Shown piece by piece: positions 9,316-64,000 of a stretch of 64,000 bases of DNA. Positions within the stretch are counted from its first letter, which is position 1. Every line of letters starts with the position of its first letter. The position numbers and the translations under genes are program-made. The stretch is from Acidovorax temperans (GTDB lineage: Bacteria; Pseudomonadota; Gammaproteobacteria; Burkholderiales; Burkholderiaceae_C). The stretch covers positions 62,001-126,000 of the forward strand of contig NZ_VFPV01000005.1 in the NCBI RefSeq assembly GCF_006716905.1, read 5' to 3'. Under the pieces are notes generated by a model, which did not search any database, was not told the origin of the DNA, and was given only the letters and a program-made list of their open reading frames with translations.

Positions 9316-9353
9316 CCCGATCGTCCCAGGCGCGATCGGGGTTTCATCTTTTG
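9316..9353 (+). terminator. Rho-independent terminator after P450 1
   Basis: Perfect 8-bp stem CCCGATCG / CGATCGGG (9316-9323 and 9333-9340) with a 9-nt loop, followed by the T-rich tract GTTTCATCTTTT. It separates the oxygenase-P450 unit from the amidohydrolase at 9383; read-through or an extra promoter would be needed for joint expression. Confidence 0.75.
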
Positions 9354-9382
9354 TTTGCATATTCCTTTATCTGGAGTCCATC

Positions 9383-21286: not shown

Positions 21287-21305
21287 GCAATCAGGGAGAC
21301 AGTAC

Positions 21306-30707: not shown

Positions 30708-31739
30708 TCAGATTTCGGTGCCACGGACGTTGCGTGCCGTGCCATTGCGCTTGTCGCTTTCGCCCCAGGCCATCCAGCGGTCGGGCTCGCGCGTATCGCC
30801 TACCCGGCGCCATCGCCCTTCCTGCTGGGCTGTGATGGGAAAACCGCCCACGAAGTCGAGCATCCGGCCTTTGGGGTCGGGCAGGAACTCCCATTCCTCT
30901 TTGCCTTCCAGGATGATGCGCGCGTCCTCGGCGAACCAGCCGTCCTTTTCATGGCGTACCGTGCCTTCGATATCCGTGGTGCAGCGAACTTCGCCCTTTT
31001 CGTTCTGGACAATGGCGTAGCCCAGTTTGTCGTGGCCGACCAGGAAGGAGCCGACATCCCAGCTCCCGTCCTTGTAGATCGTGGCAAAGTTCCACCAGAT
31101 GACATGCATCTTGTTGTTGACGACCAGGTCCTTGTGCATGTGGATGGCGCCGCCTTCCGCCATCCAGGCCTGGTCCAGGGAAATCATGCCCTTGACCTTT
31201 CTGCCCTCGCAGGTGCCCTGCACGTCGTAGAGCTGTGCGACGTAGAAGGTGCCCCAGTCCACCCCGGGCAAATACCACTGCATGCCATTGCCGATGAGTT
31301 GGCCGGTGAGGTCGAGCAAGCCTTCTTCCCGCCAACTGAACCCGGTGCCAGAGGCGGTCAGCCGCCAGGGCTGACCGGGATCCTCTGGATGGCTGGACCA
31401 CCAGGCGGTGTCGCCATCGAGCCCGCGTGCGGGAAACAGGGTGAGCGCTCTGGGGGCGATCTTTTCCTTGTCGATGCGGATGTTCTGGCCATCCAGGCGG
31501 GTGCTCTGGTAGATGAACTTGGTGGGGTTGGGCGTGCTGTCCGGCGCGTTGAGAGCCCGCACCACCGAGTAGATGTGGCCTTCATCGTCGCGCACGCTGC
31601 CAAACGGCATGTGCTTGGTGAGCTTGAGGCCGAAGTGGTCGCGCAGATCAGCCAGCCTGGCGCCGCTGACCTTTTGCGGGCCGACCAGGCATTGGTAGGC
31701 GAAGTCGGAGCGCTCGGGGATCGTATCGAAGGTTCGCAT
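30708..31739 (-). CDS. Unrecognised 343-residue protein in P450 operon
   Basis: I do not recognise this protein with confidence. It begins MRTFDTIPERSDFAYQCLVG and is rich in Trp, Gly and aromatic residues in alternating beta-strand-like stretches (WREEGLLDLTG, MHVIWWNFATIYKDGSWDVGSFLVG). There is no signal peptide, no membrane segment, no nucleotide-binding motif and no metal-binding Cys cluster. The pattern recalls lipocalin-like or CrtC/AttH-type hydratase folds, which is a weak impression. Start 31739 is 20 nt after the P450 stop. Its fixed place between a P450 and an NTF2-like protein suggests a substrate-binding or hydratase/isomerase role. Confidence 0.75.
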   Translation of the reverse strand: MRTFDTIPERSDFAYQCLVGPQKVSGARLADLRDHFGLKLTKHMPFGSVRDDEGHIYSVVRALNAPDSTPNPTKFIYQSTRLDGQNIRIDKEKIAPRALTLFPARGLDGDTAWWSSHPEDPGQPWRLTASGTGFSWREEGLLDLTGQLIGNGMQWYLPGVDWGTFYVAQLYDVQGTCEGRKVKGMISLDQAWMAEGGAIHMHKDLVVNNKMHVIWWNFATIYKDGSWDVGSFLVGHDKLGYAIVQNEKGEVRCTTDIEGTVRHEKDGWFAEDARIILEGKEEWEFLPDPKGRMLDFVGGFPITAQQEGRWRRVGDTREPDRWMAWGESDKRNGTARNVRGTEI

Positions 31740-31759
31740 GATCGGAGGGGCCTTCCTGA

Positions 31760-33049
31760 TCAATCCCAGATGACGTGCACGCTCTTGGCCCCGCGCAGAT
31801 GGGCGCCTTCGATTTTGGGCGCGGGTTGCTCGGGGTCGAGCCGCACGTTGGGCATGAGGTCCAGAATCCCGTTGATCGCGCAGTTCAGTTCGAGCTTGGC
31901 CACGAACTGGCCAATGCACATGTGCGGGCCAAAGCCGAAGCCGAACGACGGCTTCTGGCGTCGATCGATGTCGAACACGTCGGGATTCTCGAAGGCGCTT
32001 TCGTCGCGGTTGGCCGAGGCGACCATGCACTGGACGAAGGAGCCCTTGGGGATCGTCACGTCACCGATCTGTACGTCGGCGGAAGTCTCGCGCACCTTGA
32101 ACGTGGAGGAGGGCTCGAAACGCACGGCTTCGTCGATCAGCTTGGGCACCAGATTGCGGTCGTTGCGCACGCGGTCGAGCAGGCCGGGGATGGTCAGCAG
32201 GAACGTCATCGCCGCACTGAAGGTTCGTGTGGTGGTCTCACCGGCAGCGGGCAGCAGCGAGCGGGCGAAGGTCGCGACCTCGTGGTCGTCGAGCTTGTGG
32301 CCCTCGTATTCGGCGTTCATCAGGCGGGTAATGAGGTCATCGCCCGTTGCACCTTCGGCGCGGCGCCGCTGGACCTGCTCCATGAGCGCGTCGTACAGGC
32401 TCTTGACCGCAATGGCGGCGACTCGGCGGCCTTCCTCGGCCTTGGCTTTGTCAAGCTGGTTGGCCGCCAGCATCGATAGCGCCCAGACTGCATATTGGTT
32501 GTACTGATCGGGGTTGTCTTCCGGGAAGCCTACGAGGGCATACATGGCACGCACCGGAAAGTTCAGGCCCATTTCCATGAGGTCGGCTTTCTTGTCGGGC
32601 AGCAGAGGCATGATGAAATCCTCGCGCGCGACGCGGTCGATCTTCGGGCGCCACTTGTTCACGTTCTCCGGCATGAACGCCGGCTGCAGCAGGGCGCGCA
32701 CCTTGCGGTGGGCCTCGCCGTCCATGCCCAGGATCATCAGGCCATCCCACACCTTGCCCATGCCTTCGAGGATGAATCCGCTGGTGAAGGTGTTGGCGTC
32801 TTTGAGCACATTCATCACGTCTTGATACTGGAACACGGCGTAGGTCGGACGGGTCTGCAACCCGGCGTTGGTCGGAACCCCAAGGAACTTGGCAATGAAG
32901 TCGCCTTCGTAGACGCGTGTGGTCTTGCGCATCTCGCGGCAGGCGGCATACAGGTCGTCCGTTTTGCCGCGATAGAGGTCGGACACGCTGGCATAGGCCG
33001 CTTCGAGCTTCTGGGCGTTCTCGGTGGTGGTTTTGGTCGTGGTATTCAT
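31760..33049 (-). CDS. Cytochrome P450 (2)
   Basis: 429-residue soluble P450, paralogue of the P450s at 7949 and 35767. I-helix PAAGETTTRTF (residues 267-277), ExxR as EAVR 307-310, haem loop FGFGPHMCIG with Cys378. AGGAGA lies 7 nt before ATG 33049. Flanked by an FAD oxidoreductase upstream and the unrecognised protein downstream, all in one minus-strand operon. The electron donor is probably one of the two ferredoxins in the window (39355 or 50498); no ferredoxin reductase is seen. Confidence 0.93.
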   Translation of the reverse strand: MNTTTKTTTENAQKLEAAYASVSDLYRGKTDDLYAACREMRKTTRVYEGDFIAKFLGVPTNAGLQTRPTYAVFQYQDVMNVLKDANTFTSGFILEGMGKVWDGLMILGMDGEAHRKVRALLQPAFMPENVNKWRPKIDRVAREDFIMPLLPDKKADLMEMGLNFPVRAMYALVGFPEDNPDQYNQYAVWALSMLAANQLDKAKAEEGRRVAAIAVKSLYDALMEQVQRRRAEGATGDDLITRLMNAEYEGHKLDDHEVATFARSLLPAAGETTTRTFSAAMTFLLTIPGLLDRVRNDRNLVPKLIDEAVRFEPSSTFKVRETSADVQIGDVTIPKGSFVQCMVASANRDESAFENPDVFDIDRRQKPSFGFGFGPHMCIGQFVAKLELNCAINGILDLMPNVRLDPEQPAPKIEGAHLRGAKSVHVIWD

Positions 33050-39702: not shown

Positions 39703-40857
39703 TCAGAGCGATCGGCTGATGATTTCTTTCATGATTTCACTGGTTCCGCCGTAAATGCGCGCCACTCGGGCATCGACCCAGGCGCGGCTGATCATGTACT
39801 CGCTCATGAAGCCGTAGCCCCCGTGCAGTTGCAGCAGTTCGTCCAGGATCTTGCCCTGCATTTCGGAGCCCATGAGCTTGCACATGGCACCGACTTCCGC
39901 GCTGAGTTCTCCACGCATCGCCTTGGCCAGGCAGTCGTCGACGAACACGCGCAGCATGGTGGCCTGGGCCTTGCATTCGGCGAGCTTGAATTTGGTGTTC
40001 TGGAAGTCGAACACTGTCTTGCCGAACACCTTGCGGTCGCGGGTGTACTGGATCGTCTGTTCGATGAGCGAGTCGATCGATGCGGCCGCGCGGATGCCGA
40101 TGATGGTGCGTTCCCAGGCCAGTTGGTGGGTCAGGTACTTGAAGCCCTGGCCTTCTTCGCCGAGCCGGTTTGCCATCGGAACCGAGACGTTGTCGAAGAA
40201 GAGCTCCGACGTGTCCTGGCCCTTGAGTCCGATTTTTTCGAGCCTGCGGCCCTTGGAAAAACCAGGTTGGTCGGTTTCGACGCAGATTAGCGTCAGCTCC
40301 TTGGCTGCCGGATCCAGCTTGGTGGCCGTCACGGCCAGATCCGCGTTGCCCCCGTTGGTGATGAAGGTCTTCTGGCCGTTGATGGTATAGATGTCTTCGC
40401 CGCGCACGGCGGTGGTGCGCATGCTGCGCAGGTCGCTGCCTATACCGGGCTCGCTCATTGCGATCACGCCAATCGTCTCGCCGCTCACCATCTTGGGCAG
40501 CCACCGCTGTTTCTGCTCTTCCGTGCCGTAGGCCACGATATAGGGCGCGACGATTTCCGAGTGTGTGGTGAATCCGACCGCGGTGGCGTTGACCCGCGCA
40601 AGTTCTTCGATCATCACGGCCGAATGGCCGAAATCGCCGCCCGCGCCGCCGTACGCTTCAGGGACGGTGGAGCACAGCAGGCCGGCTTCGCCAGCCTTGA
40701 GCCAGACGCTCTTGGGCACGATACCCTCGGCCTCCCAGGCGTGCAGGTGGGGCACGATCTCACGTTCAATGAAGCGGCGGGCCTGTTCGCGGAACTGCTC
40801 GTGGTCTTCTCGGAATACGGGGCGCATGGAAATGTCCTGGTTCTGGGGGCTCGCCAT
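39703..40857 (-). CDS. Acyl-CoA dehydrogenase (1)
   Basis: 384-residue FAD-dependent dehydrogenase of the standard fold. AMSEPGIGSDL and INGQKTFITNGG form the flavin/substrate site; the catalytic Glu in YGGTSEIMKEIISRSL at the C-terminus is in the short/medium-chain position. ATG 40857 overlaps the crotonase TGA (TGATG), suggesting coupling; ATG 40827 with an AGGA upstream is an alternative. Introduces an alpha-beta double bond and passes electrons to EtfAB. Confidence 0.92.
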   Translation of the reverse strand: MASPQNQDISMRPVFREDHEQFREQARRFIEREIVPHLHAWEAEGIVPKSVWLKAGEAGLLCSTVPEAYGGAGGDFGHSAVMIEELARVNATAVGFTTHSEIVAPYIVAYGTEEQKQRWLPKMVSGETIGVIAMSEPGIGSDLRSMRTTAVRGEDIYTINGQKTFITNGGNADLAVTATKLDPAAKELTLICVETDQPGFSKGRRLEKIGLKGQDTSELFFDNVSVPMANRLGEEGQGFKYLTHQLAWERTIIGIRAAASIDSLIEQTIQYTRDRKVFGKTVFDFQNTKFKLAECKAQATMLRVFVDDCLAKAMRGELSAEVGAMCKLMGSEMQGKILDELLQLHGGYGFMSEYMISRAWVDARVARIYGGTSEIMKEIISRSL

Positions 40858-41687
40858 CAGCGTCCGGTGAACTGCGCGGGGCGCTTGTCCAGAAAGGCGT
40901 TGACGGCTTCGAGGTGGTCTTCGGTGTGGTGGGACAACGCTTGGTAAGCCGATGAGAGCTCCAGCAGCGTGTCAAGGCGCACATGCTGGCCTTCGCGCAG
41001 CAGGCGCTTGGTTAACCGAAGCGCATGCGACGGGTTGAGGGCGATGCGCTGGGCGAGCGCCTGTGCCTGGCCCAGCAACTGGTCGGCGGGAAAAACGTCG
41101 GCAACCAGGCCCCAGGACAGCGCCTTGGCGGCATCGATGGTGTCGCCGGTGAAGGCCAGGAGGCTGGCCTTGGGCATGCCGATCACGCGCGGCAGCAGCC
41201 AGGCGCCACCGTCCCCGGGCACGATGCCGACCTTGACGAAGCTCTCCGCGAACAGGGCCTTGTCACTCGCAATCCGGATGTCGCACATGCAGGCCAGATC
41301 CAGGCCCGCGCCAATCGCAGGACCATTCACCGCTGCGATCACCGGCACGTCGAGCTCGTAGAGCGCGAGGGGAATGCGCTGGATGGTGTCGCGGTAACTG
41401 TCGCGCACCTCGTAGGGGCTGCCCGCGAAAATGCCGCCGCGCTGCTGCATGTCCTTCACATTGCCGCCAGCGCAGAAAGCACTGCCTTCGCCGGTCAGCA
41501 CCAGGGCCTTGATGCTGTGGTCTGCACGAATCTGGCGGCACAGGGCCACCAGTTCATCCATGTGCGCGGGATCGGTCAGGGCGTTGCGCGTCTCGGGACG
41601 GTTCAACCGGGCGGTCAGCACGGGGCCGTCGCGTTCGATCAGCAAGAAGGGGGTAGGGCTTTGTTCGCTCATGGGGTGGGAATTCAT
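40857..41687 (-). CDS. Enoyl-CoA hydratase/isomerase (crotonase) family protein
   Basis: 276-residue crotonase-superfamily protein. Oxyanion-hole segments are SAFCAGGNVKDM and NGPAIGAGLDLACMCDIRIAS. Aligned to rat crotonase, the Glu144 position appears to be Phe (in ESFVKVGIVPGDGG), so it may not be a simple hydratase; this alignment was done by eye. Start 41687 overlaps the stop of the upstream dehydrogenase (ATGA). Between two acyl-CoA dehydrogenase genes it likely acts on their enoyl-CoA product. Confidence 0.9.
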   Translation of the reverse strand: MNSHPMSEQSPTPFLLIERDGPVLTARLNRPETRNALTDPAHMDELVALCRQIRADHSIKALVLTGEGSAFCAGGNVKDMQQRGGIFAGSPYEVRDSYRDTIQRIPLALYELDVPVIAAVNGPAIGAGLDLACMCDIRIASDKALFAESFVKVGIVPGDGGAWLLPRVIGMPKASLLAFTGDTIDAAKALSWGLVADVFPADQLLGQAQALAQRIALNPSHALRLTKRLLREGQHVRLDTLLELSSAYQALSHHTEDHLEAVNAFLDKRPAQFTGR

Positions 41688-42781
41688 GTGGAGGACAGGG
41701 CTGCCAGGCGGCCACTGGTTACGGCAGGCCACAGCGAGGCAGAGCCGCCTTGGGCGACGGCCCTTCCCAGCCGCTGTGTCCAGTGCCCCTGGTTGCCGAA
41801 CTCGCTGCGCCAGGCCCAGAGCCGGCGGGTGCCCAACTGCAGCGCATGCTCGTGCGTAAAGCCGATGGCGCCGTGCACTGCATGGGCCATGGCGGCCACC
41901 GCACCGGCGGCTTCTGCGCCGCAGACCTTGGCCGCGGCAATCTGCCAGGCCGCCAGTTGGCTGCCCGATTCCGCGAAGGCGGCCTCGGCGCTGACGAGCG
42001 CGCTGCCCGTGTGCTGAGCCATCTGCGCCAACTGGTGCTGAATGGCCTGAAATGCGCTGATGGGCTTGCCGAATTGAACCCGCTCGGTGGCGTAGCGGGT
42101 GCTCAGATCCAGCGTGGTTTCGAGGGCTCCGGCCATCTGGGCCGTGCGCAGCATGGCCCCTCCCCACCAGATCACATCGTCGGGCCAATCGGCGGGGACA
42201 TCCGCGATCGCGATGGGCGTGGTGTTCTTGAAGCTGAGGTCGTCCCGCGGCTCGCCGGCGGTGTTCTGCTTGGTGCTCACTTCCGCGTCGCGGCGCGACA
42301 GCAGGATCAACGTCGTTCGTTCGCCGGGGACGAGAGCGACGACGTGCTCCACATCGCGCCCCCAGGGTACGTCGCACAGCGTGCCTGTGACGAGGGTTTC
42401 CGCAGGCGCAACCCAGGGTGCGTCGAAGAAAGCTCCTTTTGCGGCATGGTTGAGCGACAGCGTGCTGCGCATGGAGATGCCCAGCGGTTCATTGCGGGCC
42501 TCGATCCCGCACTGGCCCAGCAACCAGTTCGCGAACATGGTCTCGGGCAGGGGCAGGGGCAGATTGTGGCGTCCTGCAGCCTTCACGACCCCGTACAGGT
42601 CTTCCCAGGAGGCGCCAGCGCCGCCCAGGTGTTCCGGCGCGGCGGCCACAGCGAACCCGGATGATTCGAGGGCTGCCCACAGGTCGGCCGGCCAGTGGCC
42701 CGCCTCGCAGTGGCGGATCAGTTCCGGGGTGACGAGATCGGCCAGCAGCCGCTCGATGGTGGATTCAAACAATTCACGCAT
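41684..42781 (-). CDS. Acyl-CoA dehydrogenase-like protein (2), probable heteromer subunit
   Basis: 365-residue member of the acyl-CoA dehydrogenase fold. The C-terminal domain carries HGAIGFTHEHALQLGTRRLWAW, a signature I associate with one subunit of the alpha2beta2 dehydrogenases of sterol and bile-acid degradation, and the usual YGGTSEI catalytic segment is absent. GAGAA precedes ATG 42781. Immediately downstream (10 nt) of another dehydrogenase with the complementary RGGTREI segment; the two probably form a heterotetramer. Confidence 0.87.
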   Translation of the reverse strand: MRELFESTIERLLADLVTPELIRHCEAGHWPADLWAALESSGFAVAAAPEHLGGAGASWEDLYGVVKAAGRHNLPLPLPETMFANWLLGQCGIEARNEPLGISMRSTLSLNHAAKGAFFDAPWVAPAETLVTGTLCDVPWGRDVEHVVALVPGERTTLILLSRRDAEVSTKQNTAGEPRDDLSFKNTTPIAIADVPADWPDDVIWWGGAMLRTAQMAGALETTLDLSTRYATERVQFGKPISAFQAIQHQLAQMAQHTGSALVSAEAAFAESGSQLAAWQIAAAKVCGAEAAGAVAAMAHAVHGAIGFTHEHALQLGTRRLWAWRSEFGNQGHWTQRLGRAVAQGGSASLWPAVTSGRLAALSST

Positions 42782-42791
42782 GCTTGTGTTC

Positions 42792-43961
42792 TCAACGCAG
42801 CCCGAGACCGCGGGCGATGATGCCGCGCAGGATTTCGCGTGTGCCACCACGCAGCGAGAAAGAAGGTGCCATCTGCATCAAGGCCGCCAGCACTTGCGCA
42901 TGGTCACTGCCCCCGCCGACGGCGGGCGCCACATCGAGCACCTGTTGGGCGAGTTCAGGGATCTCCTGCTCAAACGCAGCACCCAGATCCTTCAGGCAGG
43001 AGGCCGCCCAGGCGGGGTTGCCTCCTGCGGCCAACTCGGCCGTGACCGCCAGCGACATCTGGCGCAGCACGACAAGGCGCGCGCTCAGGCGACCCACGGC
43101 ATGGGCCTGCAGGGCATCCGGTTGTGCTCCGACGGCGTCGATCAGCGTGTGCAGCAGCGCCATGCTGCTCAGGAAACGCTCTGGCCCGCTGCGCTCGAAG
43201 GCGAGTTCCGCGGTGACTTGTTCCCAGCCCTGGCCTTCGGTGCCGATCAAGGCATCGGCATCCAGGCGGACGTCGTCGAGGTAGACCTCGTTGAAGTGTT
43301 CACCGCCCGCCAGGTCACGGATCGGGCGCACCGTGACGCCGGCGGCCTTCAGGTCAATGATGAACTGCGACATGCCTTCATGGCGCGCAGCCTTCTCGCC
43401 CGTAGCAGCACCCGTGCGCACCAGGGCGATCATGTATTGCGCGTGGTGGGCATTGGTGGTCCAGACCTTCTGGCCGCTCAGCCGCCAGCTGCCATCGCCC
43501 GCCGCTTCATCACGCACCGCGCGGCTGCGGATCGAAGCGAGGTCCGAGCCCGAGTTGGGCTCGCTCATGCCGATGCAGAAATAGACCTCGCCCTTGCAGA
43601 TCCCAGGCAAGTACTTCTGGCGCTGGGCTTCCGTGCCATAGCGCAGGATCAGGGGGCCGCTCTGGCGGTCGGCGATCCAGTGGGCGGAGACGGGGGCCCC
43701 GGCCGCCAGCAGCTCTTCGATCACGACATAGCGCGCCCAAGGGCTGGCGTCGTGGCCGCCATACTGGTGTGGCAAGGTCATGCCAAGCCAGCCGCGGCAC
43801 CCCAATTCCCGGCTGAAGGCCGGGTCGGCGCCCATCCACGAGTCCGCGCGGCGCAGGGCGCTCCGATCCTTGAGTGCGGTGGCGAGAAAGCGCCTCACCT
43901 CGGCCCGGAGCGGCTCGACGTCTGCGGGGATGCGGTGGTATTGGAAAGATGCAAGCGCCAT
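42792..43961 (-). CDS. Acyl-CoA dehydrogenase (3), probable heteromer partner
   Basis: 389 residues. Complete N-terminal and middle domains (IGMSEPNSGSDLASIRS; SGQKVWTTNAHHAQYM) and C-terminal SLRGGTREILRGIIARGLGLR. Together with the incomplete protein at 41684 this pattern resembles FadE-type heterotetrameric acyl-CoA dehydrogenases acting on bulky ring or side-chain CoA esters. Second gene of the operon that starts with the amidohydrolase at 45308. Confidence 0.9.
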   Translation of the reverse strand: MALASFQYHRIPADVEPLRAEVRRFLATALKDRSALRRADSWMGADPAFSRELGCRGWLGMTLPHQYGGHDASPWARYVVIEELLAAGAPVSAHWIADRQSGPLILRYGTEAQRQKYLPGICKGEVYFCIGMSEPNSGSDLASIRSRAVRDEAAGDGSWRLSGQKVWTTNAHHAQYMIALVRTGAATGEKAARHEGMSQFIIDLKAAGVTVRPIRDLAGGEHFNEVYLDDVRLDADALIGTEGQGWEQVTAELAFERSGPERFLSSMALLHTLIDAVGAQPDALQAHAVGRLSARLVVLRQMSLAVTAELAAGGNPAWAASCLKDLGAAFEQEIPELAQQVLDVAPAVGGGSDHAQVLAALMQMAPSFSLRGGTREILRGIIARGLGLR

Positions 43962-44000: not shown

Positions 44001-45308
44001 TTACAAGGCGGTCTGGGCGTCGGCGGCGGCAAACATCTTGTTGATGTCGCCCGAGGTGACCGGACGCTCCGGGTCACGGAGCGGAGCCGCGCCACCCATG
44101 CCGCAGGCCGGCTCGATGCTCACGTGCTTGGCCTGCGCCTTCAGCGCGCCGACGGTGCAGTTTTCGCGGCCCAGGATGGCGAAGGGGTCGTAGGAGAACT
44201 CGCGCATCGCATTCAGGTGCGTGATCTTGTTGATGACCTCGTCGCTCAGGTGCTGAGATTGCTTCCAGAACACGTTGGCGGATTCCGGCCATGTGCAGTC
44301 GGAGTGCGGGTAGTCGCATTCCCAGGTGACCTTGTCGACATTGATGAAGTCCAGATTGCGCAGGCCGAACTCGTCCTCGATGAAGCAGGTGATGATGTGC
44401 TCGTTGAAGACGTCGCTGGGCTTCTTGCCGCCAAAGTTGGAGTTGGTCCAGGCGTTGTGGTGGTTGTGGGTGAAGTTGGCGCGTTCCAGCAGGTAGGGGA
44501 TCCAGCCGATGCCGCCTTCGGACAGGGCCATACGCAGCTTGGGGAATTTCTTCCACATGGGGGCCCAGATCCAGTCGGCGGCGGAGTTGGAGATGGAGAT
44601 GGGCATTGACGTGATCCAGGCATCGATCGGCGACTCGTCGGATGCATGGGCCGCTTTGACGCCGGTGCCGATGTGGCAGCAGATCACCACGTCGTTGTCC
44701 GCGCATGCCTTCCACAGGGGATCCCAGTAGCTGTTGTGGATGGACGGGTACCCATGCACGGTAGGGTTGTCGGAGAACGTGAGGGCATGCACACCCTGCT
44801 TGGCCAGGCGCTGGACTTCCGCCGCCGCCGCCTGCATGTCGAACCAAGGAGCCATCATCAAGGGAATGAAGCGGCCCGGTGCAGCGTTGCACCAATCGTG
44901 CAGATGCCAGTCGTTGTAGGCCTGGATGGCTGCGAGCGAGACACCGCGGTCTTCGTAGCTCTGAAACCGCTGTCCCGCAAAACCCGGGAAGGTCGGGAAG
45001 CAGATCGAACCCAGAACGCCATTGGCATTCATGTCATCGACACGGGCCTTGATGTCCCAAGTGCCGCGGCGCATCTGTTCGTAGCCCAGCGGCTCCATGC
45101 CGTATTCCTCTTTGGGGCGGCCGACCACCGAGTTCAGGCCCATGTAGCCCGTGGCTTTTTCCTCGAACACCCAGACGTCGCGACCTTTGTGGTTCTCGAC
45201 GCGGGGCTCGCGCCCCTTGTACTTCGCGGGCATATGGCGGGCGAATGCATTGGGTGGCTCGATGGCGTGATCGTCAACGCTGACGAGGATGAGATCTTCC
45301 AGTTTCAT
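44001..45308 (-). CDS. Amidohydrolase_2 family protein (large type, copy 2)
   Basis: 435-residue paralogue of the protein at 9383, colinear along its full length: ILVSVDDHAIEPP start, WDIKARVDDMNANGVLGS, CCHIGTGVKAAHASDESPID, ECDYPHSDCTWPES and the end VTSGDINKMFAAADAQTAL. GGAGA 4-5 nt before ATG 45308. First gene of a seven-gene minus-strand operon with three acyl-CoA dehydrogenases, crotonase, ferredoxin and VOC protein, so it may release or decarboxylate the acid that enters beta-oxidation. Function unassigned. Confidence 0.86.
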   Translation of the reverse strand: MKLEDLILVSVDDHAIEPPNAFARHMPAKYKGREPRVENHKGRDVWVFEEKATGYMGLNSVVGRPKEEYGMEPLGYEQMRRGTWDIKARVDDMNANGVLGSICFPTFPGFAGQRFQSYEDRGVSLAAIQAYNDWHLHDWCNAAPGRFIPLMMAPWFDMQAAAAEVQRLAKQGVHALTFSDNPTVHGYPSIHNSYWDPLWKACADNDVVICCHIGTGVKAAHASDESPIDAWITSMPISISNSAADWIWAPMWKKFPKLRMALSEGGIGWIPYLLERANFTHNHHNAWTNSNFGGKKPSDVFNEHIITCFIEDEFGLRNLDFINVDKVTWECDYPHSDCTWPESANVFWKQSQHLSDEVINKITHLNAMREFSYDPFAILGRENCTVGALKAQAKHVSIEPACGMGGAAPLRDPERPVTSGDINKMFAAADAQTAL

Positions 45309-49328: not shown

Positions 49329-50165
49329 TCAAAAAAGCACAGATTCCAGCCGGGTGCCCAATTCCTTCAGCGACTGTCCAAGCGCCTTGATCCGTACTTC
49401 GGCATCGCTGTGCTGGCTGCGGATCATGACAGCCGAAACGGTGTAGGCAATGCTGCGCGTGGTGTCGCGCACAGGGGCGGCGATCGCAAGGACGCCGTCG
49501 GAGAAATACCCGTCGTCAACGGCCCATCCGTGGCGTTGAGCTAGGTGAACCTGTTCCAAATACTCCTCAAACGATAGCGCGCGTGCCCAGCGAATACGGG
49601 CGAATTCAGCGCGCAGATCGTTTTCAGAGAGATTCATCTGCCCAACGAAAAGCCGGCCGCTGGCCCCCATCAGGACAGGCAGGCGCTGGCCCAGCGGCAT
49701 GTAGATGTGCAGATCCGTAGGGCTGGATTCGGAGCTGACGAGCACGATCCTGTCATTGCCCATCCGGCGCCAGAGCGTGACCGTGATTCCGCGCGCGATG
49801 GCAAGTTCGCGCATGAGCGGCAATGCCAACTGGACGCGCTGGCCCTGTGTCACCAACTGCTCTGCCAAGCGAGCCAGCCCAAGGCCTGCAGAGTACGTTT
49901 TGGACAGCGGATTGAAATCGACGACATCTTCCGAGACCAGGGTTCGGAGGATGTTGAAGCAGGTGCTTGGATTGATTTCCAGGTGCCTCGCTATGTCCGC
50001 TGCTCGCTCAGGAGCCCCCTTGTGCGCGAGGTATCGAAGGACTCCGATGGCATTCACCACGGGCTTCACGATGACGCCGTGGCTCGATCCTGATTTCTTG
50101 GAGTTGTCGGCCAAAGTCGGAGCTTTGCCCGGCGCGGAGCTGTCTTCGGTCACAACGGATTCCAT
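49329..50165 (-). CDS. IclR-family transcriptional regulator
   Basis: 278 residues. After a Ser/Lys-rich N-terminal stretch of about 30 residues comes the winged HTH (NAIGVLRYLAHKGAPERAADIARHLEINPSTCFNILRTLV), then the IclR effector domain with SSESSPTDLHIYMPLGQRLPVLMGASGRLF. IclR proteins often control aromatic catabolism by binding acids. The neighbouring promoter at 50166-50497, upstream of the ferredoxin/extradiol dioxygenase pair, is its most likely target. Confidence 0.9.
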   Translation of the reverse strand: MESVVTEDSSAPGKAPTLADNSKKSGSSHGVIVKPVVNAIGVLRYLAHKGAPERAADIARHLEINPSTCFNILRTLVSEDVVDFNPLSKTYSAGLGLARLAEQLVTQGQRVQLALPLMRELAIARGITVTLWRRMGNDRIVLVSSESSPTDLHIYMPLGQRLPVLMGASGRLFVGQMNLSENDLRAEFARIRWARALSFEEYLEQVHLAQRHGWAVDDGYFSDGVLAIAAPVRDTTRSIAYTVSAVMIRSQHSDAEVRIKALGQSLKELGTRLESVLF

Positions 50166-50497
50166 GTTGTCCAGTGGTCAATTGAATGCAGGTCACTGCC
50201 TCGGAAGTGTTGGAACGAGGGGGCGTCACAAAACTTCCACCTGTCTGCAGCAGCGGGCATTCTAAGTGGCGAAGTGCATTCTGTATGGAGTTTTATCTAT
50301 CGTACGTCTGTTCAGGGACGTCCTGTGGGGACGGGAGTACCGGGTCGGCTCGTGGGTCGTTGCGCGCAGGTGCAAAGTGTGGGGGCGCGAAGGGCGGTTT
50401 AGGGAGAACCCTGAAGTAAAAATCAACACTTTATCGAATAATGTGCATATGTCTGTACGCGCAGCAACATCGAACCCGCTGCATCGAAAGGAAAATT
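50166..50497. promoter_or_regulatory. IclR/ferredoxin divergent promoter region
   Basis: 332 nt with no gene. Contains GAATAATGTGCATATGT at 50436-50452, 15 of 17 positions identical with 45404-45420, about 45 nt before the ferredoxin ATG. GGTGCAAAGTGTGGGGGCGCG-like G-rich DNA lies further upstream. AAAGGAAAA is the ferredoxin Shine-Dalgarno. No -35/-10 pair is obvious. Confidence 0.45.
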
Positions 50498-50725
50498 ATG
50501 AGTACCCACGGGAAAACCCCCACACTTCGAGTGATCGTGGATCGCGGTCGTTGCTGCGGCTACGGGCTGTGTGCCCAACTCTGCCCCGAGGTGTACAAGC
50601 TGGATGAAAACGGCTTGGTATATGTCGAATCCGAGCTCATCCCTGGCGGGCTTGAGGAGGAGGCGAGGGAAGGGGCCGCGGCCTGCCCCGCGGAAGCGCT
50701 GGTCATCGAAGCGATTCAGTCGTGA
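50498..50725 (+). CDS. Small P450-type ferredoxin ([3Fe-4S] or [4Fe-4S])
   Basis: 75-residue single-cluster ferredoxin. Ligands fit C19-x2-Y22-x2-C25-x3-C29-P with C63-P near the end; the second ligand position is Tyr instead of Cys, as in [3Fe-4S] ferredoxins that serve bacterial P450s. Start 50498 has AAAGGAAAA upstream. Paired with an extradiol dioxygenase 118 nt downstream; the latter does not need a ferredoxin, so the electron acceptor is probably one of the P450s. Confidence 0.9.
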   Translation: MSTHGKTPTLRVIVDRGRCCGYGLCAQLCPEVYKLDENGLVYVESELIPGGLEEEAREGAAACPAEALVIEAIQS

Positions 50726-50843: not shown

Positions 50844-51791
50844 ATGGACATCATAGGTATTGGATACCTCGGCTTCGAGACAACCAAGGTGGACGAATGG
50901 CGGGAGTATGGACCGCAGGTCATGGGTTTTCAGGTTGGCCAGTCTCCGGCGTCAGATCCGGACTCTCTCTACTTCCGCACGGACGATCGGCGGCACCGGT
51001 TTGCCTTCCATCCCGGCAAGATCGATCGCTTGGCCTACATCGGCTGGGAGGCCAAGGGAAAGATCGAGTTCGAGGCGGCGTTTGCCCGATTCCAGGAACA
51101 CGGCGTGGAAGTCACCATGGGCGATGCGGCCCTGTGCGAGCAGCGTGGCGTCAAGGGAGTGTTCCGTTTTCGTGACCCGGTCGGCTACCAGCATGAGATG
51201 TTCCATGGTCAAAAATGGATGCCCCGTTCCTTCACGCCAGGCCGCCCTCACGGGGGCTTCGTGGCCGGCGTGCGGGGGTTGGGGCATCTGGTCGTGATCA
51301 CTCCGCAATGGCCACCCGAACTGCAGGATTTCTTCGTCAAGCTGATGGGCTTCCATTACTACGGCCCAGGGGCCGGCAAGGGCCAGACGGCGTTTTACCG
51401 CTCCAAGCTCAACAGCTACACTAGCCACGATATCGCCTATGGATACGGGCCTGGGAAGATGGGTGTCCAGCATGTGGGCCTGTTTGTGAAAAGCCTGCGC
51501 GACGTCGGCGAGACCTACGACATCGTGAAGCAGCGCGGGATCCCGATGATGATGACGCTGGGACAGCACTCTCAAGATCCGCACGCTTCCTTCTACCATT
51601 TCTCGCCGGGCGGCTTTGCACTCGAGACCATCACCGAGCTCGAACCCTGGCATGACGACGGCTTCGAACTCAATCCCGAGAAGCTTAGCATCTGGGGTCA
51701 TGAAGTGGTGGGCCCGATCCTCGGCCCGAGCGTACGGACGCCCGAAGAACTGCTCGAGCCCGAGTTGCTGGCCAAGTACAAACAGGGATGA
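50844..51791 (+). CDS. Type I extradiol ring-cleavage dioxygenase (BphC-like)
   Basis: 315-residue two-domain vicinal-oxygen-chelate dioxygenase. Iron ligands H148 (GLGHLVVI), H210 (GVQHVGLFV) and E261 (ALETITE) match those of BphC, and the second-sphere catalytic residues H195 (TSHDIAYG), H242 (GQHSQD) and Y251 (SFYHFSP) are also present, so it should be active. Cleaves a catecholic ring next to a hydroxyl. No alpha/beta-fold meta-cleavage hydrolase of BphD/MhpC type lies in the window; the amidohydrolases could fill that role. Transcribed with the small ferredoxin. Confidence 0.92.
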   Translation: MDIIGIGYLGFETTKVDEWREYGPQVMGFQVGQSPASDPDSLYFRTDDRRHRFAFHPGKIDRLAYIGWEAKGKIEFEAAFARFQEHGVEVTMGDAALCEQRGVKGVFRFRDPVGYQHEMFHGQKWMPRSFTPGRPHGGFVAGVRGLGHLVVITPQWPPELQDFFVKLMGFHYYGPGAGKGQTAFYRSKLNSYTSHDIAYGYGPGKMGVQHVGLFVKSLRDVGETYDIVKQRGIPMMMTLGQHSQDPHASFYHFSPGGFALETITELEPWHDDGFELNPEKLSIWGHEVVGPILGPSVRTPEELLEPELLAKYKQG

Positions 51792-54459: not shown

Positions 54460-54573
54460 TGGAAAGGCAAATACCTGGGGTTCAAAAATTGAATTTGACT
54501 ATGCCATAAATATGAACAAAATATAGATAAATGTTTAAATAAAAGGTTGCGCGAGCAACCTGGAGATATCCCC
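54460..54573. promoter_or_regulatory. LysR/2-oxoacid oxidoreductase divergent promoter
   Basis: AT-rich. TTGACT (54495-54500) with AAATAT or CAAAAT about 17 bp later is the likely promoter of the rightward gene. AAATATGAACA at 54508-54518 sits between -35 and -10, identical over 11 bp to the reverse complement of 45410-45420. GGAGATATCCCC precedes ATG 54574. Confidence 0.55.
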
Positions 54574-57500
54574 ATGACCCCTCCCGTTTCCCTGGCGGAC
54601 AAGTACGAATTGCCCGCCGGCCGTGTCTACATGAACGGTACGCAGGCGCTGGTTCGGCTGCTGCTGGCGCAAAAGGCGCGTGACGAGGCCGCCGGGTTGA
54701 ATACCGAAGGTTTCGTCTCCGGCTATCGTGGCTCTCCCCTGGGCGCCGTAGACCAGGAGCTGTGGAAGAACCGGGCGCTGTTGGACAAGCACAAGGTGCG
54801 CTTTCAGCCCGGTCTCAACGAGGAGCTGGCGGCAACGTCGGTCTGGGGCACGCAGATGGTGAGCCTGGATCCGAAGGCACGGGTCGATGGCGTGTTCGCC
54901 CTCTGGTACGGGAAGGGACCGGGCGTGGACCGCAGTGGCGATGTCTTCAAGCACGGGAACATCGCGGGTGGCGCTCCGCATGGCGGCGTGCTGCTGGTGG
55001 CGGGAGACGACCACGCATGCAAGTCATCCAGCCTGCCGCATCAGAGCGAGCATGCATTCATCGCTGCGATGATTCCGGTGCTGCATCCTTCGGGAGTACA
55101 CGAATTCATCGAATTCGGACTCCACGGATACGCCATGTCGCGCTACTCCGGATGCTGGGTGGGCTTCAAAGTGATCAGCGACACGGTCGAGTCCTCGTCG
55201 TCGTTCGACATCGATCCGATGTCGGTCGAGATCAAGATTCCACAGTCCTACCCGGTTCCCGCCGACGGCTTCTCGATCCGCTGGCCCGATCCTCCGCTGG
55301 AGCAGGAGAACCGGCTGCAGCGCGAGCGCCTGTATGCACTGCTCGAATACGTGCGCCTGAACAAACTCAATCGCCAGGACTGGGCAGTCCCGGACGCACG
55401 CCTGGGTATCTGCACCACCGGCAAGAGCTACCTGGACGTGCGCGAGGCGCTGTCGCTGCTGGGCTTGGACGAGGCGGCCGCACAGGCGCTGGGTGTGCGC
55501 CTGCTCAAAATCGGCGTGGTCTGGCCTTTGGAACCCACCTGCGTGGTTGAGTTCGCACAGGGCCTCGACGAAATACTGGTCGTGGAGGAAAAGCGCCAGG
55601 TACTCGAATACCAGATCAAGGAGCACCTCTACAACGAACCCCATCGCCCCCGCGTGGTCGGCAAATACGATGAATCGGGCGAATGGGTTCAGGTTCCCAG
55701 CAGCGGCATCCTGCTGTCGCCCAATGGCGAGCTCACGCCAGCCGGCATCGCTGATGTGATCGCTGCGCGCCTAGTAAAGGTGTACGGGCAAGGCGTGCTG
55801 CCGGAGTCGGTGCGGGTGTGGTTGGAGCGTCAGGCGGTGGTGGCAACTCGTTCCCCATCCGATGCGCCTGTGCCCCAGCGGCTTCCTTACTTTTGTTCGG
55901 GCTGTCCCCACAACACCAGCACCCAGGTGCCGGAGGGGTCGCGCGCGCTGGCGGGGATCGGCTGTCACTACATGTCGATGTGGATGGATCGCCGCACGGA
56001 AACTTTCAGCCAGATGGGCGGCGAAGGGGTGCCGTGGATAGGGCAGGCGCCCTACACGGATACGCCACATGTGTTCGCCAACCTGGGCGATGGAACCTAC
56101 ATGCACTCGGGCTCCCTGGCCATCCGGGCTGCCGTGGCTGCCGGTGTCAACATCACCTACAAGCTGCTGGTCAACGATGCTGTCGCCATGACGGGAGGTC
56201 AGCCAGTCGAAGGCGCACCTTCGGTGCCCCAGTTGCTGCGGCAGCTTGCCGCCGAAGGCGTGAAGGAACTGCACCTGGTGAGCGACGAGCCCGAGGCCTT
56301 TCAGGCCTTGGACGACTTCCCCAAGGATGTCAAGGTGTCGCACCGTGACGGCATGGACGCGCTGCAGCGTGCGCTGCGCGACGTCAAGGGGGTGTCGGTG
56401 ATCGTCTATGCGCAGACCTGCGCGGCCGAGAAGCGCCGCCGGCGCAAGAAGAAGACCCTGGTCGATCCGGCGCGTCGAGTGGTCATCAACGAGGCCGTGT
56501 GCGAAGGCTGCGGCGATTGCGGCGTGCAGTCCAACTGCGTCTCCATCCTGCCACTGGAAACGCCCTTGGGGCGCAAGCGGCAGATCGATCAGAGCGGCTG
56601 CAACAAGGACTTCTCCTGCGTGCGCGGATTCTGCCCAAGCTTCGTGGTGCTCGATGGCGCCGAACTGCGAAAGCCCCAGCGTGACCGCGTGGCGCCGCCT
56701 ACCGGCATGGCGCGACCCGAGCTGCCAGTCTTGGCACGCCCCTGGAACATTCTGGTGGCCGGGGTCGGCGGCACCGGCGTGGTGACCATCGGTGCCCTCA
56801 TGGGGATGGCCGCGCATCTCGAGGGCAAAGGGGTGCTGGTGCTGGACATGGCAGGTTTGGCGCAGAAGGGCGGGGCCGTGATGTCCCATGTGCGGCTGGC
56901 GGCGGATCCCGTCCAACTGCATGCCGCGCGGGTAGCGCGCGGACAGGCGGACGTGGTGCTCGGCTGCGACCTGATGGTGGCCGCGGCCGGAGATGCGCTT
57001 GCTTCCATGGCGTCCGGGCGCACTCGCGCCGTGTTGAATACGGACGTGGCCCCCACGGGCAGCTTTACACGGGATCCCGACTGGCAGGCGTCGCCCGATG
57101 CGATGCTCGAGCGGGTCGGTTCGGCCGCTGCCCAGGTAGAGTCTCTGGAGGCTTCCCGCCTGGCGGTCGCCCTCATGGGGGATGCTGTGGCCACCAACGT
57201 ATTCCTGCTGGGCTTTGCATGGCAAAAAGGCTGGGTGCCTCTGCAAGAGGATTCGTTGCTGCGCGCCATCGAACTCAACGGCGCCGCGGTGGGCATGAAC
57301 CGCGCAGCGTTTGCCTGGGGACGCCAGGCTGCGCTGGATCCTGCTGCGGTGCGCCTTGCGGCCGGGCTGCCTTCCGACGAGAAGGTGATGCTGATGCCGA
57401 GCAGAACAGCGTCTCTTGCGAGCATTCTGGCCGATCGCACGGAGCGGCTCGCCGACTACCAGAATGCACGCTACGCGCAGCACTACGCGGCGGTCGTGCG

Positions 57501-58059
57501 GCGTGTTTCCGATGTCGAGAAGGCGCGTGTCGGGGGAGAGCGCCTCGCGCGCGAGGTCGCGATGAGCCTCTACAAGCTGATGGCCTACAAAGATGAATAC
57601 GAAGTTGCTCGCCTGCACACCAGCAGTGATTTCCTCGCCCGGCTGCAAGAGCGCTTCGAAGGTGATTTCACCGTGAGCTACTACCTGGCACCGCCGCTGC
57701 TGGCGCGCCGCGACGCGCAAGGCCGTCCAGTCAAGCAGCGCTACGGCGCCTGGGTGCAGACGGCCTTCCGTCTCCTGGCCCGTTTGCGGTTCCTGCGCGG
57801 AACAGTTTTCGATCCGTTCGGCTGGACTCGGGAGCGGCGGGAGGAACGTGCGGCAATCGACGAATTCGAGGCCTTGGTTGAAGACCTGCTGAAAGACCTG
57901 AACAGCAACAACTTCAACGAGGCGTTGGCGCTCGCCCGTTTGCCCCAGCAAGTGCGAGGCTATGGCCATGTGAAGGCGCGCGAGCACGAGGTCGCGCAGA
58001 AGAAGGCCTTGGAGCTCCTGGCCCGCTGGCGAACGAAGACCGGCCTTTCCCAAGGCTAA
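54574..58059 (+). CDS. Indolepyruvate/2-oxoacid:ferredoxin oxidoreductase, fused
   Basis: 1161-residue single-chain member of the 2-oxoacid:ferredoxin oxidoreductase superfamily, typical length for beta-proteobacteria. The pyrimidine-binding pyruvate-oxidoreductase domain lies first ([18 protein letters not shown]), the thiamin diphosphate domain around residues 450-600 ([31 protein letters not shown]), a [4Fe-4S] site [13 protein letters not shown], and the gamma domain [15 protein letters not shown]. Oxidatively decarboxylates an aryl pyruvate or other 2-oxo acid to acyl-CoA. It is close to etfBA and under a LysR promoter. Role in amino-acid or aromatic catabolism is likely. Confidence 0.93.
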
Positions 58060-58102
58060 GGCAGTCAGGAAAAAGCTGCTACTCATTCCAAAGGAGATAC
58101 AT

Positions 58103-58852
58103 ATGAGAATTCTTGTCCCTGTCAAGCGCGTGGTGGACTACAACGTGAAGGTCCGCGTGAAGTCGGATAACACGGGTGTGGACATCGCCAACGTGAAGAT
58201 GAGCATGAACCCCTTTGACGAAATCGCCGTTGAAGAGGCCGTGCGCCTGAAAGAAAAAGGCCTGGTGACCGAAGTCATCGCAGTCTCCTGCGGCGTGGCC
58301 CAATGCCAGGAAACCCTGCGCACCGCCATGGCCATCGGCGCTGACCGCGCCATCCTGGTCGAAACCGACGCCGAACTGCAGCCCCTGGCCGTGGCCAAGC
58401 TCCTCAAAGCCCTGGTCGACAAAGAACAACCCCAGCTCATCATCCTGGGCAAACAAGCCATCGACGACGACGCCAACCAGACCGGCCAAATGCTCGCCGC
58501 CCTGGCAGACCTGCCCCAGGCCACCTTCGCCAGCAAGGTCGAGTTGGCTGCCGACAAAGTCAGCGTGACCCGTGAAGTGGATGGCGGCCTCGAAACCCTG
58601 GCATTGAGCCTGCCCGCCGTCATCACCACCGACCTGCGCCTGAATGAACCCCGCTACGTCACCTTGCCCAACATCATGAAGGCCAAGAAAAAGCAGCTGG
58701 ACACCGTCAAGCCAGAAGACCTGGGAGTGGACGTGGCACCCCGCCTCAAAACCCTGAAAGTGACCGAGCCTGCCAAGCGCGGCGCAGGCGTCAAGGTGGC
58801 CGACGTGGCTGCCCTGGTCGAGAAACTCAAGAACGAAGCGAAGGTGATCTAA
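58103..58852 (+). CDS. etfB: Electron transfer flavoprotein, beta subunit
   Basis: 249 residues. Full-length Etf[24 protein letters not shown] start, [11 protein letters not shown], the AMP-binding [33 protein letters not shown] and the C-terminal helix. AAAGGAGATACAT ahead of the ATG. Accepts electrons from acyl-CoA dehydrogenases as a heterodimer with EtfA. Codon use is more A-rich in the third position (many CAA/GAA/AAA) than the neighbours. Confidence 0.97.
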
Positions 58853-59788
58853 ATGTCGGTACTCGTTATTGCTGAACACGACAACGCGTCCATCAAGGGC
58901 GCGACGCTCAACACCGTCGCGGCCGCGGCCGCCTGCGGCGGCGACGTGCACGTGCTGGTGGCCGGCCACAACGCCGGTGCCGCAGCCGCTGCCGCTGCGC
59001 AGATCGCCGGAGTCGCCAAGGTCATCCACGCCGACGCCGCCGGCCTGGAACACGGCCTGGCCGAGAACGTGGCCGCCCAGGTGCTGGCCATTGCCGGCAA
59101 CTACAGCCACATCCTGTTCCCCGCCACCGCCGGCGGCAAGAACGTGGCGCCCCGCGTGGCCGCCAAGCTGGACGTGGCCCAGATCAGCGACATCACCAAG
59201 GTGGTGGGCGCCGACACCTTCGAGCGCCCCATCTACGCGGGCAACGCCATCGCCACCGTGCAGTCGGGCGATGCCGTGAAGGTCATCACCGTGCGCACTA
59301 CGGGCTTCGACGCCGCGCCCGCCACGGGCGGCTCCGCCCCCGTCGAGGCCGCCGCAGCCGTGGCCGATGCGGGCAAGAGCAGCTTCGTGGGCCGCGAAGT
59401 CACCAAGAACGACCGCCCCGAGCTCACCGCCGCCAAGATCATCGTCTCGGGCGGCCGGGCCCTTGGCAGCGCCGAGAAGTTCACCGAAGTCATGACGCCC
59501 CTGGCCGACAAGCTGGGCGCGGCCATCGGCGCATCGCGCGCCGCCGTGGACGCGGGCTACGCCCCCAACGACCTGCAGGTGGGCCAGACGGGAAAGATCG
59601 TGGCGCCGCAGCTCTACATCGCCGCAGGCATCTCGGGCGCCATCCAGCATCTGGCTGGCATGAAGGACTCCAAGGTGATCCTGGCGATCAACAAGGATCC
59701 CGAGGCCCCCATCTTCAGCGTGGCCGACTACGGCCTGGAGGCCGACCTGTTCACGGCCGTGCCGGAACTCGTCAAGGCGATCTCGTAA
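58853..59788 (+). CDS. etfA: Electron transfer flavoprotein, alpha subunit
   Basis: 311 residues, starting 0 nt after the etfB stop. N-terminal domain [20 protein letters not shown], and the FAD-binding C-terminal domain with [67 protein letters not shown] and [18 protein letters not shown]. Together with EtfB and ETF:quinone oxidoreductase (not in window) it feeds electrons from the dehydrogenases at 39703-43961 to the respiratory chain. Confidence 0.97.
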
Positions 59789-62828: not shown

Positions 62829-64000
62829 TCATCCATTGGTGCCAGTTATCGATGCATTTGGCCGCGAAGGCAGGATTTGGTCAGCATAGCGGTCAACCGG
62901 GAAGCGAAACACACCCCGCAAGTTGATGCTCTCCAGCCTGGTGGGCGCAATCTTCCCGATCAGTTCCGGTGGAATGACCTGGCGGCGGTTCGACCAGCGA
63001 TCCAGGACCGCCTGCATCTGTGAGGTATTCCACGCCATCACGATGTTGGCCATCAGGCTCAACGCATCGGCCACAGCCTGCATTTCATCGACACGTTTGG
63101 CCTGCGCCGGGCTGATCCGGCCGGTATAAATGGCGCGCTTGAGGGCGTTAACAGCCTCGCCCCGATTGAGCACCCGGCGCAACTCGTTCCTGAAAGCGTC
63201 CTTGACAAAGTAGTCAGCCAAAAACGCCGTACGCAGCAACCGCCCCAATTGCACGCCAGCCTCATAGATTGGATCGCCCTGGGCGGCAGAACCGAACCGC
63301 GCAAGAGCTGCCACCGCACTGGCATGTCCGCTCATGACCGAGGCTGCCAGGTGCACCAGACTATCCCAATGCTTTTCGATCAAAGCGACGTCGACATTGG
63401 CTTCGCACACCGCAGCGATTTCTGCGGGCACTTTGGTGCCGCGTGGCACAAAGAGGTGGCGCTGTTTGAGTTCCTTCAACCGCGGGCAAAGATCAAAACC
63501 AAGCAAACGGGCATGTGACATGGCAAAGTCGGTGTAGCCATGGGTATCCACAGCAAGCTGGCTGGTCTCCAGCTTTTCTTGGCGGATGACACCTTCAATG
63601 GCCACGCCCGCCTGGCGCTCATTGAGCACAAAGGGCTGCGCATGGAAGATGCCCCACCGGTCTTTTACATGGGAGTAGATTCCAATGGAAGGTGTGTTGC
63701 GCCGAGGATCAAGCCGGGCTTGCCACACCCGTTTGGTGGTCTCCATGCTCATCATGTCAGAAGATGCCAAATCGGACCGCCCCCAGGTGGCGGCAATCGG
63801 GTGTCGCTGCATGAATTCCAGCACAGCCTGGCAGGCCTGGCTCAGACGCCGTTCGTCCCGCGCCCAGCGCATGGCCTGGCGAATGCTGGTGGCAGACAAT
63901 TGCGGAATCATGCGCGCGCATTCGACCGCAGTCAGACTGGTGCCGTGGGCCATGATGCCGGCATAGACCATCAGCAGCTCGTCGGTAGAGCGCGGCTCAC
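62829..64000 (-). CDS. tnpA: Tn3-family transposase (TnpA), C-terminal part
   Basis: About 390 C-terminal codons; the 5' part is beyond the window edge and the frame is open there (EPRSTDELLMVYAGIMAHGTSL). One DDE aspartate is in AVDTHGYTDFAMSHA and the glutamate most likely in FRNELRRVLNRGEAVNALKR. Also SHVKDRWGIFHAQPF and LIEKHWDSLVHLAASV typical for the family. Full-length Tn3 transposases have about 970-1000 residues. It cuts at DNA ends and replicatively transposes; responsible for the insertion at the CRISPR array. Confidence 0.92.
   Translation of the reverse strand, partial: EPRSTDELLMVYAGIMAHGTSLTAVECARMIPQLSATSIRQAMRWARDERRLSQACQAVLEFMQRHPIAATWGRSDLASSDMMSMETTKRVWQARLDPRRNTPSIGIYSHVKDRWGIFHAQPFVLNERQAGVAIEGVIRQEKLETSQLAVDTHGYTDFAMSHARLLGFDLCPRLKELKQRHLFVPRGTKVPAEIAAVCEANVDVALIEKHWDSLVHLAASVMSGHASAVAALARFGSAAQGDPIYEAGVQLGRLLRTAFLADYFVKDAFRNELRRVLNRGEAVNALKRAIYTGRISPAQAKRVDEMQAVADALSLMANIVMAWNTSQMQAVLDRWSNRRQVIPPELIGKIAPTRLESINLRGVFRFPVDRYADQILPSRPNASITGTNG

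Follow-up and report, generated by a model that had tools for sequence, protein, structure and literature searches.

FAH-family proteins as candidates for the carbon-carbon hydrolysis step after DitC in a resin-acid (dit) gene cluster of Acidovorax temperans

The ring-cleavage dioxygenases BphC and HsaC cut next to a ring-substituted carbon, and the amidohydrolase family PF04909 holds two enzymes, LigY and ACMSD (2-amino-3-carboxymuconate-semialdehyde decarboxylase), that both act on ring-fission products. The closest described relative of the locus reported here is the dit (abietane diterpenoid) cluster of Pseudomonas abietaniphila, in whose pathway a ketone at C7 and hydroxyls at C11 and C12 of ring C precede the putative ring-cleavage enzyme DitC. 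There, DitQ introduces the 7-hydroxyl, which a dehydrogenase oxidises to the ketone, and the 7-oxo compound is the substrate of DitA (PMC13063091). By the same account, strains with an insertion in ditC or ditH no longer grow on several resin acids, and the later steps of resin-acid breakdown are not fully elucidated (PMC13063091); a second paper annotates DitH and DitD, both proteins of the fumarylacetoacetate-hydrolase (FAH) family, as isomerase/decarboxylase (PMC12628601). Our literature searches (dit cluster, LigY, DitZ, and dehydroabietic acid combined with FAH or amidohydrolase) returned no account of the C-C cleavage step among the matches listed.

We analysed a stretch of 64,000 nucleotides from Acidovorax temperans (contig NZ_VFPV01000005.1, positions 62,001 to 126,000), referred to here as the window, and compared it with ∼61 kb of a P. 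abietaniphila contig taken as three adjoining pieces. The genes discussed below are listed by window position; percentages are identities to the P. abietaniphila counterpart unless stated otherwise, and a Dit name given as "by gene order" is an assignment that we infer from position.

3838-4856 (open reading frame 3876-4856), plus strand: second ACMSD-like amidohydrolase, frameshifted
5863-7915, plus strand: second ring-hydroxylating dioxygenase (RHO) alpha/beta set; 67% for the alpha subunit, compared with the DitA1-like protein
7922-9229, plus strand: cytochrome P450, third copy
9383-10693, plus strand: second DitZ-like protein (probable amidohydrolase-related dinuclear oxygenase, ARO); 79% identical to the 44001-45308 product
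11838-13253 and 13296-13832, plus strand: RHO alpha and beta, DitA1A2-like; 80% and 68%
14710-15510, plus strand: SDR dehydrogenase (DitI by gene order); 71%
15528-17192, minus strand: acyl-CoA ligase (DitJ by gene order); 76%
19356-20444, plus strand: ACMSD-like amidohydrolase (DitL by gene order); 80%; overlaps the FAH gene by 4 bases
20441-21286, plus strand: FAH-family protein FAH3 (DitM by gene order); 67%
21156-22211 (start uncertain), plus strand: 3-hydroxyacyl-CoA dehydrogenase, downstream of the FAH gene; 73%
21917-23383 (start uncertain), plus strand: thiolase, downstream of the FAH gene; 72%
31760-33049, minus strand: cytochrome P450; 73% over 310 residues
35740-37038, plus strand: cytochrome P450 (DitQ by gene order); 75%
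39703-43961, minus strand: acyl-CoA dehydrogenases and enoyl-CoA hydratase; two dehydrogenases 74% and 83%
44001-45308, minus strand: probable amidohydrolase-fold dinuclear monooxygenase (DitZ/PtmU3-like, ARO); 81%
49329-50165, minus strand: IclR-type regulator (DitR-like); 59%
50441-50725, plus strand: single-cluster ferredoxin (DitA3-like; Fer4_15/Fer4_13), directly upstream of DitC
50844-51791, plus strand: DitC-type extradiol (BphC-like) ring-cleavage dioxygenase, 315 aa; 73%

Of the 38 window proteins compared, 20 come out as the top match to some gene of the P. abietaniphila region, each with an identity of at least 56%. Both loci share the gene order SDR, CoA ligase, TetR, ACMSD-like amidohydrolase, FAH, 3-hydroxyacyl-CoA dehydrogenase and thiolase; the RHO, the P450s (73-75%), the DitZ-like protein and the acyl-CoA dehydrogenases also recur in the P. 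abietaniphila region in a partly different arrangement, and the ACMSD-like pair is 75% and 80% identical to its counterparts. The cluster extends to the left of the window, where DitH (72% to P. abietaniphila DitH) lies ∼2.7 kb outside; this flank also holds orthologs of the genes that occupy the DitF and DitG positions in P. abietaniphila. Orthologs of DitA1, DitA2, DitA3, DitC, DitR and DitH are thus all present. The dit gene names in the available text of PMC12628601 agree with the P. abietaniphila order, and the dit letters beyond the genes named there rest on gene order. Because gene content and order are shared and the dit names fit, the window, as judged from its sequence, covers much of a dit cluster directed at abietane resin acids, which is a known kind of cluster. 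It differs from that of P. abietaniphila in having no DitD ortholog beside DitC, in carrying a second RHO, P450 and ARO set, in the frameshift in one ACMSD-like gene, and in the arrangement of the DitC block.

A scan of named genomes for DitC gave 70 related loci, each taken with a flank of up to 10 kb per side (53 of the 70 longer than 20 kb; 1.33 Mb in total). They include P. abietaniphila ATCC 700689, presumably the same strain as BKME-9, other Pseudomonas genomes, and genomes of Massilia, Zoogloea and Aromatoleum; near-identical copies occur in Acidovorax sp. GW101-3H11 and Simplicispira metamorpha. A ferredoxin similar to the one upstream of DitC was found in 60 of the 70 loci and an IclR-type regulator in 51.

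The 50844-51791 protein contains a BphC_D1 and a Glyoxalase/dioxygenase domain in the Pfam scan, and its closest solved structure is BphC (6l3w, E 1e-43). A reading made from the window sequence alone (hereafter the sequence-only reading) had described a complete dioxygenase with all six BphC-type residues, and alignment bears this out: H148, H195, H210, H242, Y251 and E261 coincide with identical residues in HsaC and in the annotated BphC of plasmid pBD2. In an alignment of 75 rows (73 DitC stretches, the window's own included, plus BphC and HsaC), H148, H195 and H210 are kept in 74 of 74 aligned rows and H242, Y251 and E261 in 73 of 73, so that the iron triad and the second-sphere residues of a type I extradiol enzyme are all in place. 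The protein scores 193.7 bits against the BphC equivalog model TIGR03213, under its cut-off of 366, and is also far from reaching the HsaC equivalog cut-off; it would therefore be a relative with another substrate, not a biphenyl BphC. It is the sole BphC_D1 protein found in the whole genome. From its sequence it is an intact BphC-type dioxygenase and the ortholog of DitC.

The sequence-only reading had also stated that no C-C hydrolase of the MhpC/BphD kind is in the window, and this holds as far as our searches by HMM, Pfam and the BphD model reach. The Pfam scan of 60 window open reading frames gave no alpha/beta hydrolase domain. We built a meta-cleavage HMM from five alpha/beta hydrolases (one annotated as HsaD, three encoded beside catechol 2,3-dioxygenase genes, one unsupported), and it had no match at E<10 in the window, its flanks or the 70 DitC loci; an HsaD query together with the HMM likewise found nothing in the window, in five 20-kb stretches elsewhere on contig C5, in two plasmid loci or in the ∼61 kb of P. 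abietaniphila. As a measure of its reach, the HMM recovered nine of the genome's 14 Abhydrolase_1 places at E≤1e-5 and one at 0.0024 and missed four, so a divergent member could escape it. That reading had asked for a check for a hydrolase elsewhere in the genome: all 14 Abhydrolase_1 places (E≤1e-10) are on contigs other than the window's, the BphD model reaches at most 56.8 bits genome-wide against a cut-off of 462, and none of the seven best alpha/beta proteins by HMM attains the BphD or HsaD cut-off (best HsaD score 57.9 of 400). One of the seven passes the PcaD cut-off, and the best meta-cleavage candidate of the genome scores highest to PcaD-type models. In P. abietaniphila, no Abhydrolase_1 place (E≤1e-8) falls inside the ∼61-kb dit stretch. 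With nothing found in the window, its flanks, the 70 loci or the P. abietaniphila stretch, the lack of a classical meta-cleavage hydrolase seems, on these sequences, to be a general feature of dit clusters. The available text of PMC12628601 gives ditL as "AB hydrolase"; gene order would make ditL the amidohydrolase gene, and our searches of the P. abietaniphila region turned up no alpha/beta hydrolase.

The FAH gene at 20441-21286 is missing from the gene list of the sequence-only reading, which did not consider FAH enzymes. Its product, FAH3, belongs to the FAH superfamily by domain (PF01557, 175.2 bits against a cut-off of 23.9) and stays under the cut-off of all six NCBIfam models that it matched, including HpaG and 2,4-diketo-3-deoxy-rhamnonate hydrolase. 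The acidic residues E123, E125 and D151 (window numbering; motifs ExE and ND), which we take to be metal ligands, are kept in nine of nine aligned FAH proteins. Domain family and acidic residues are shared with FAH hydrolases such as 2,4-diketo-3-deoxy-rhamnonate hydrolase (8gsr), the acylpyruvase FAHD1 and HpcE/HpaG. The solved relatives of FAH3 comprise diketo-acid hydrolases and acylpyruvases and also decarboxylases and isomerases; since the FAH family holds hydratases and decarboxylases as well as isomerases, family membership alone does not give the reaction. DitD, the FAH protein beside DitC in many relatives, has no ortholog in this genome (best match 42%).

In 34 DitC genomes, which we chose from those with the 70 loci, searches recovered DitH every time, and FAH3 and the ACMSD-like amidohydrolase of the 19356-20444 type in 33 each. 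The last two are same-strand neighbours in 33 of 33 genomes, with match edges at most 24 bases apart save in one genome, where the distance is 516 bases; Zoogloea sp. LCSB751 (G434, locus L108) is without both genes at the thresholds used. Because the amidohydrolase is as widespread as FAH3, co-occurrence does not choose between them. At the level of loci, a FAH gene lies directly downstream of ditC on the same strand in 30 of 70, and somewhere within the flanks of up to 10 kb in 53. Among the 17 with no FAH gene within those flanks, three (L040, L042, L045) belong to genomes that have FAH3 and DitH farther away, nine (L086, L088-L094, L106) are those with a DitZ-like gene directly before ditC, one (L052) is on a short contig, and four (L041, L043, L044, L095) were judged by their flanks only.

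The sequence-only reading had counted four amidohydrolases in the window and suggested that they may hydrolyse the fission product in the manner of LigY. The count is right for the PF04909 family (six members in the genome at E≤1e-5), with one of the four frameshifted. The suggestion fares less well: two of the four are probable AROs, one is the frameshifted gene, and the fourth, at 19356-20444, is kept as a rival candidate though it is nearer to ACMSD. The LigY analogy is therefore mostly wrong for the genes proposed, and we would caution that PF04909 membership in a catabolic cluster should not be read as "hydrolase".

LigY (the OH-DDVA meta-cleavage hydrolase, 5vn5) shares its Pfam family with the 19356-20444 product at 69-80 bits; ACMSD is nearer, with 107.8 versus 69.3 bits in the sequence search and 139.6 versus 80.0 in the profile comparison, and LigY is thus not the closest characterised relative by sequence. 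The top structural match of the AlphaFold model, which is of moderate quality (pLDDT 72.3, pTM 0.78, stretches under 50), is ACMSD (7pwy, Z 31.5, rmsd 2.9 over 305 residues), and further decarboxylases are level with it, within 1 Z. The 50 structural matches listed are led by ACMSD and decarboxylases at Z of about 30-31; LigY is not among the matches listed, which leaves room for a likeness to LigY beyond them. ACMSD itself is the best sequence match at ∼25% identity only, and the two differ at the metal site. The strand-8 Asp of ACMSD is a metal ligand, and classical amidohydrolase chemistry uses an acidic residue on that strand; the dit proteins have Asn308 where human ACMSD has the Asp of its GTDYP, and this holds for all 17 rows aligned (eleven of the 19356-20444 type and six of the 3876-4856 type). 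H6, H8, H190 and H244 are kept in the same 17 rows. In the second ACMSD-like gene the frame is broken between the start codon at 3838 and the open reading frame 3876-4856, so that the N-terminal HxH motif is lost. Four relatives (L126-L129, from Simplicispira, an Aquabacterium MAG, Acidovorax and a Hydrogenophaga MAG) are intact, and the frameshift may reflect a pseudogene or an assembly error. A LigY-type role for the 3876-4856 product is unlikely, given the frameshift across HxH.

The other two PF04909 proteins are of a different kind. The 44001-45308 product matches DitZ of Rhodococcus rhodochrous (8uyr) at E 4e-103 over residues 1-399 of 435, nearly its full length, and PtmU3 at E 4e-30; DitZ and PtmU3 are likewise the best solved matches of the 9383-10693 product. 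As described in print, PtmU3 and AibH2 belong to a subgroup within PF04909 whose members are dinuclear monooxygenases (PMC10811679, PMC10401708, PMC7782822), and we took the AibH2 metal-ligand list from the last of these papers. All six ligands and an adjacent acidic residue are found in both window proteins: D12, H14, H212, E264, D332, H335 and D337 are kept in 25 rows, both window copies included (24 of 24 aligned for the last two positions). With the metal-ligand motif of DitZ and PtmU3, these window proteins are probably oxygenases, and a LigY-type role was rejected for both on account of their dinuclear oxygenase ligands. Our literature search showed no paper on DitZ among the matches listed, and none on the 8uyr structure. 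The accessible part of PMC13063091 describes 5-hydroxylation of dehydroabietic acid in P. abietaniphila, for which its authors suggest another P450; one may speculate that the DitZ-like oxygenases are candidates for this reaction. The nine loci with a DitZ-like gene directly before DitC are mostly from Pseudomonas and Stutzerimonas and otherwise from MAGs; the gene mostly follows RHO alpha and beta, and in five cases the contig carries a further DitC locus, one that has a FAH gene. The window has a similar second RHO/P450/DitZ-like set at 5863-10693 and no second DitC.

For the C-C hydrolysis of the DitC product we favour, tentatively and at a little under an even chance, enzymes of the FAH family. 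Following BphC and HsaC, DitC would cut ring C between C9 and C11. C9 would become a ketone and, together with the C7 ketone, would make ring B a cyclic 1,3-diketone carrying the opened chain on C8. FAH itself hydrolyses a 1,3-diketone bond of that kind, so that such a product would suit retro-Claisen chemistry of the FAH type, and DitH and FAH3 (with DitD in many relatives) would stand in for the BphD-type hydrolase. A cut between C12 and C13 in place of C9-C11 would give no 1,3-diketone. Breakage of the C8-C9 and C7-C8 bonds would set free a piece that could give rise to 2-isopropylmalate. The acid is reported from this degradation (PMC6891630), which agrees with C11-C8 leaving in one piece once the ring has been cut at C9-C11. 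The ACMSD-like amidohydrolase would act next to FAH3, probably as a hydratase or decarboxylase, and the DitZ-like amidohydrolases would be monooxygenases. In this scheme gene identities, shared content, co-occurrence, ligand residues and the failure to find an alpha/beta hydrolase are observations, and we infer the cleavage site, the substrate and which FAH protein acts.

The scheme as a whole, with the ditC of a resin-acid cluster, 9,11-cleavage to a cyclic 1,3-diketone and FAH proteins in place of a BphD-type hydrolase, is credible to a similar, not quite even, degree. It leaves two or three widely shared genes as candidates for the missing C-C cleavage step and suggests, on chemical grounds, why the usual hydrolase might be lacking: a 1,3-diketone derived from the 7-ketone, taken with FAH chemistry, would explain why no BphD-type enzyme has been kept. 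Somewhat more doubtful is the wider idea that dit clusters use a third, unrelated lineage of meta-cleavage-product hydrolases, of the FAH family, enabled by the 7-ketone and working with an Asn-bearing ACMSD-like amidohydrolase.

The rivals draw on much of the same evidence. That the 19356-20444 amidohydrolase hydrolyses the fission product as LigY does, with its FAH partner acting afterwards, is unlikely: it lies beside the FAH gene in all of the 33 genomes that have it, keeps its four histidines throughout, and shares PF04909 and a similarity of 69 bits with LigY, but it is nearer by sequence to ACMSD and the aromatic decarboxylases and has Asn308 where ACMSD has Asp. The same family membership, and the position of a relative directly before DitC in nine loci, could be cited for the DitZ-like proteins (9383-10693 and 44001-45308) as the C-C hydrolases. 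All seven dinuclear positions of the AibH2/PtmU3 type and the best solved matches to DitZ and PtmU3 argue against this and make it extremely improbable, which takes these proteins off the list of C-C hydrolase candidates.

Direct hydrolysis might also be bypassed, as in steroid C/D-ring breakdown, where CoA-dependent ring opening offers a parallel. The fission product would then be turned into a CoA thioester, to be opened by enzymes of the crotonase type or other CoA-dependent enzymes, and the cluster with its left flank does encode CoA ligases, acyl-CoA dehydrogenases, two enoyl-CoA hydratase-family proteins, a 3-hydroxyacyl-CoA dehydrogenase and thiolases. The same enzymes are, however, equally needed for later beta-oxidation, and the families scanned yielded no dedicated ring-opening enzyme; we regard this route as unlikely. 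Quite unlikely is hydrolysis by an unlinked alpha/beta hydrolase of the chromosome. Such an enzyme would have to come from the 14 Abhydrolase_1 places, the nearest of which scores 69 bits with the meta-cleavage HMM, or be one of the divergent kind that the HMM misses in four of 14 cases; yet the seven best stay under the BphD and HsaD cut-offs, the top candidate scores highest to PcaD-type models, the 14 all lie on other contigs, and a cluster that has moved horizontally would be expected to carry its own hydrolase.

Two proteins without a Pfam match, either of which may be a cryptic hydrolase, have homologs in the P. abietaniphila dit region: the product of 30708-32030 (minus strand; 64% over 343 residues to L068:955-2034) and that of L110:5209-6174 (76%). 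Near DitC, positions 54547-59788 encode a large indolepyruvate-ferredoxin-oxidoreductase-like protein followed by two electron-transfer-flavoprotein-like subunits, a gene set that also occurs near DitC in Massilia, Zoogloea and Aromatoleum loci. The stretch 40844-61782 is 99.5% identical in DNA to Acidovorax sp. GW101-3H11 (L040) over 20.9 kb, and the same region is 97.6% identical to Simplicispira metamorpha (L042) over 19.3 kb and 97.3% to an Aquabacterium MAG (L041) over 14.2 kb; on sequence identity, these near-identical stretches would reflect either recent horizontal spread or close kinship. A Tn3-family transposase frame with a DDE domain lies at 62829-63971, at the right end of the window and near the right end of the cluster.
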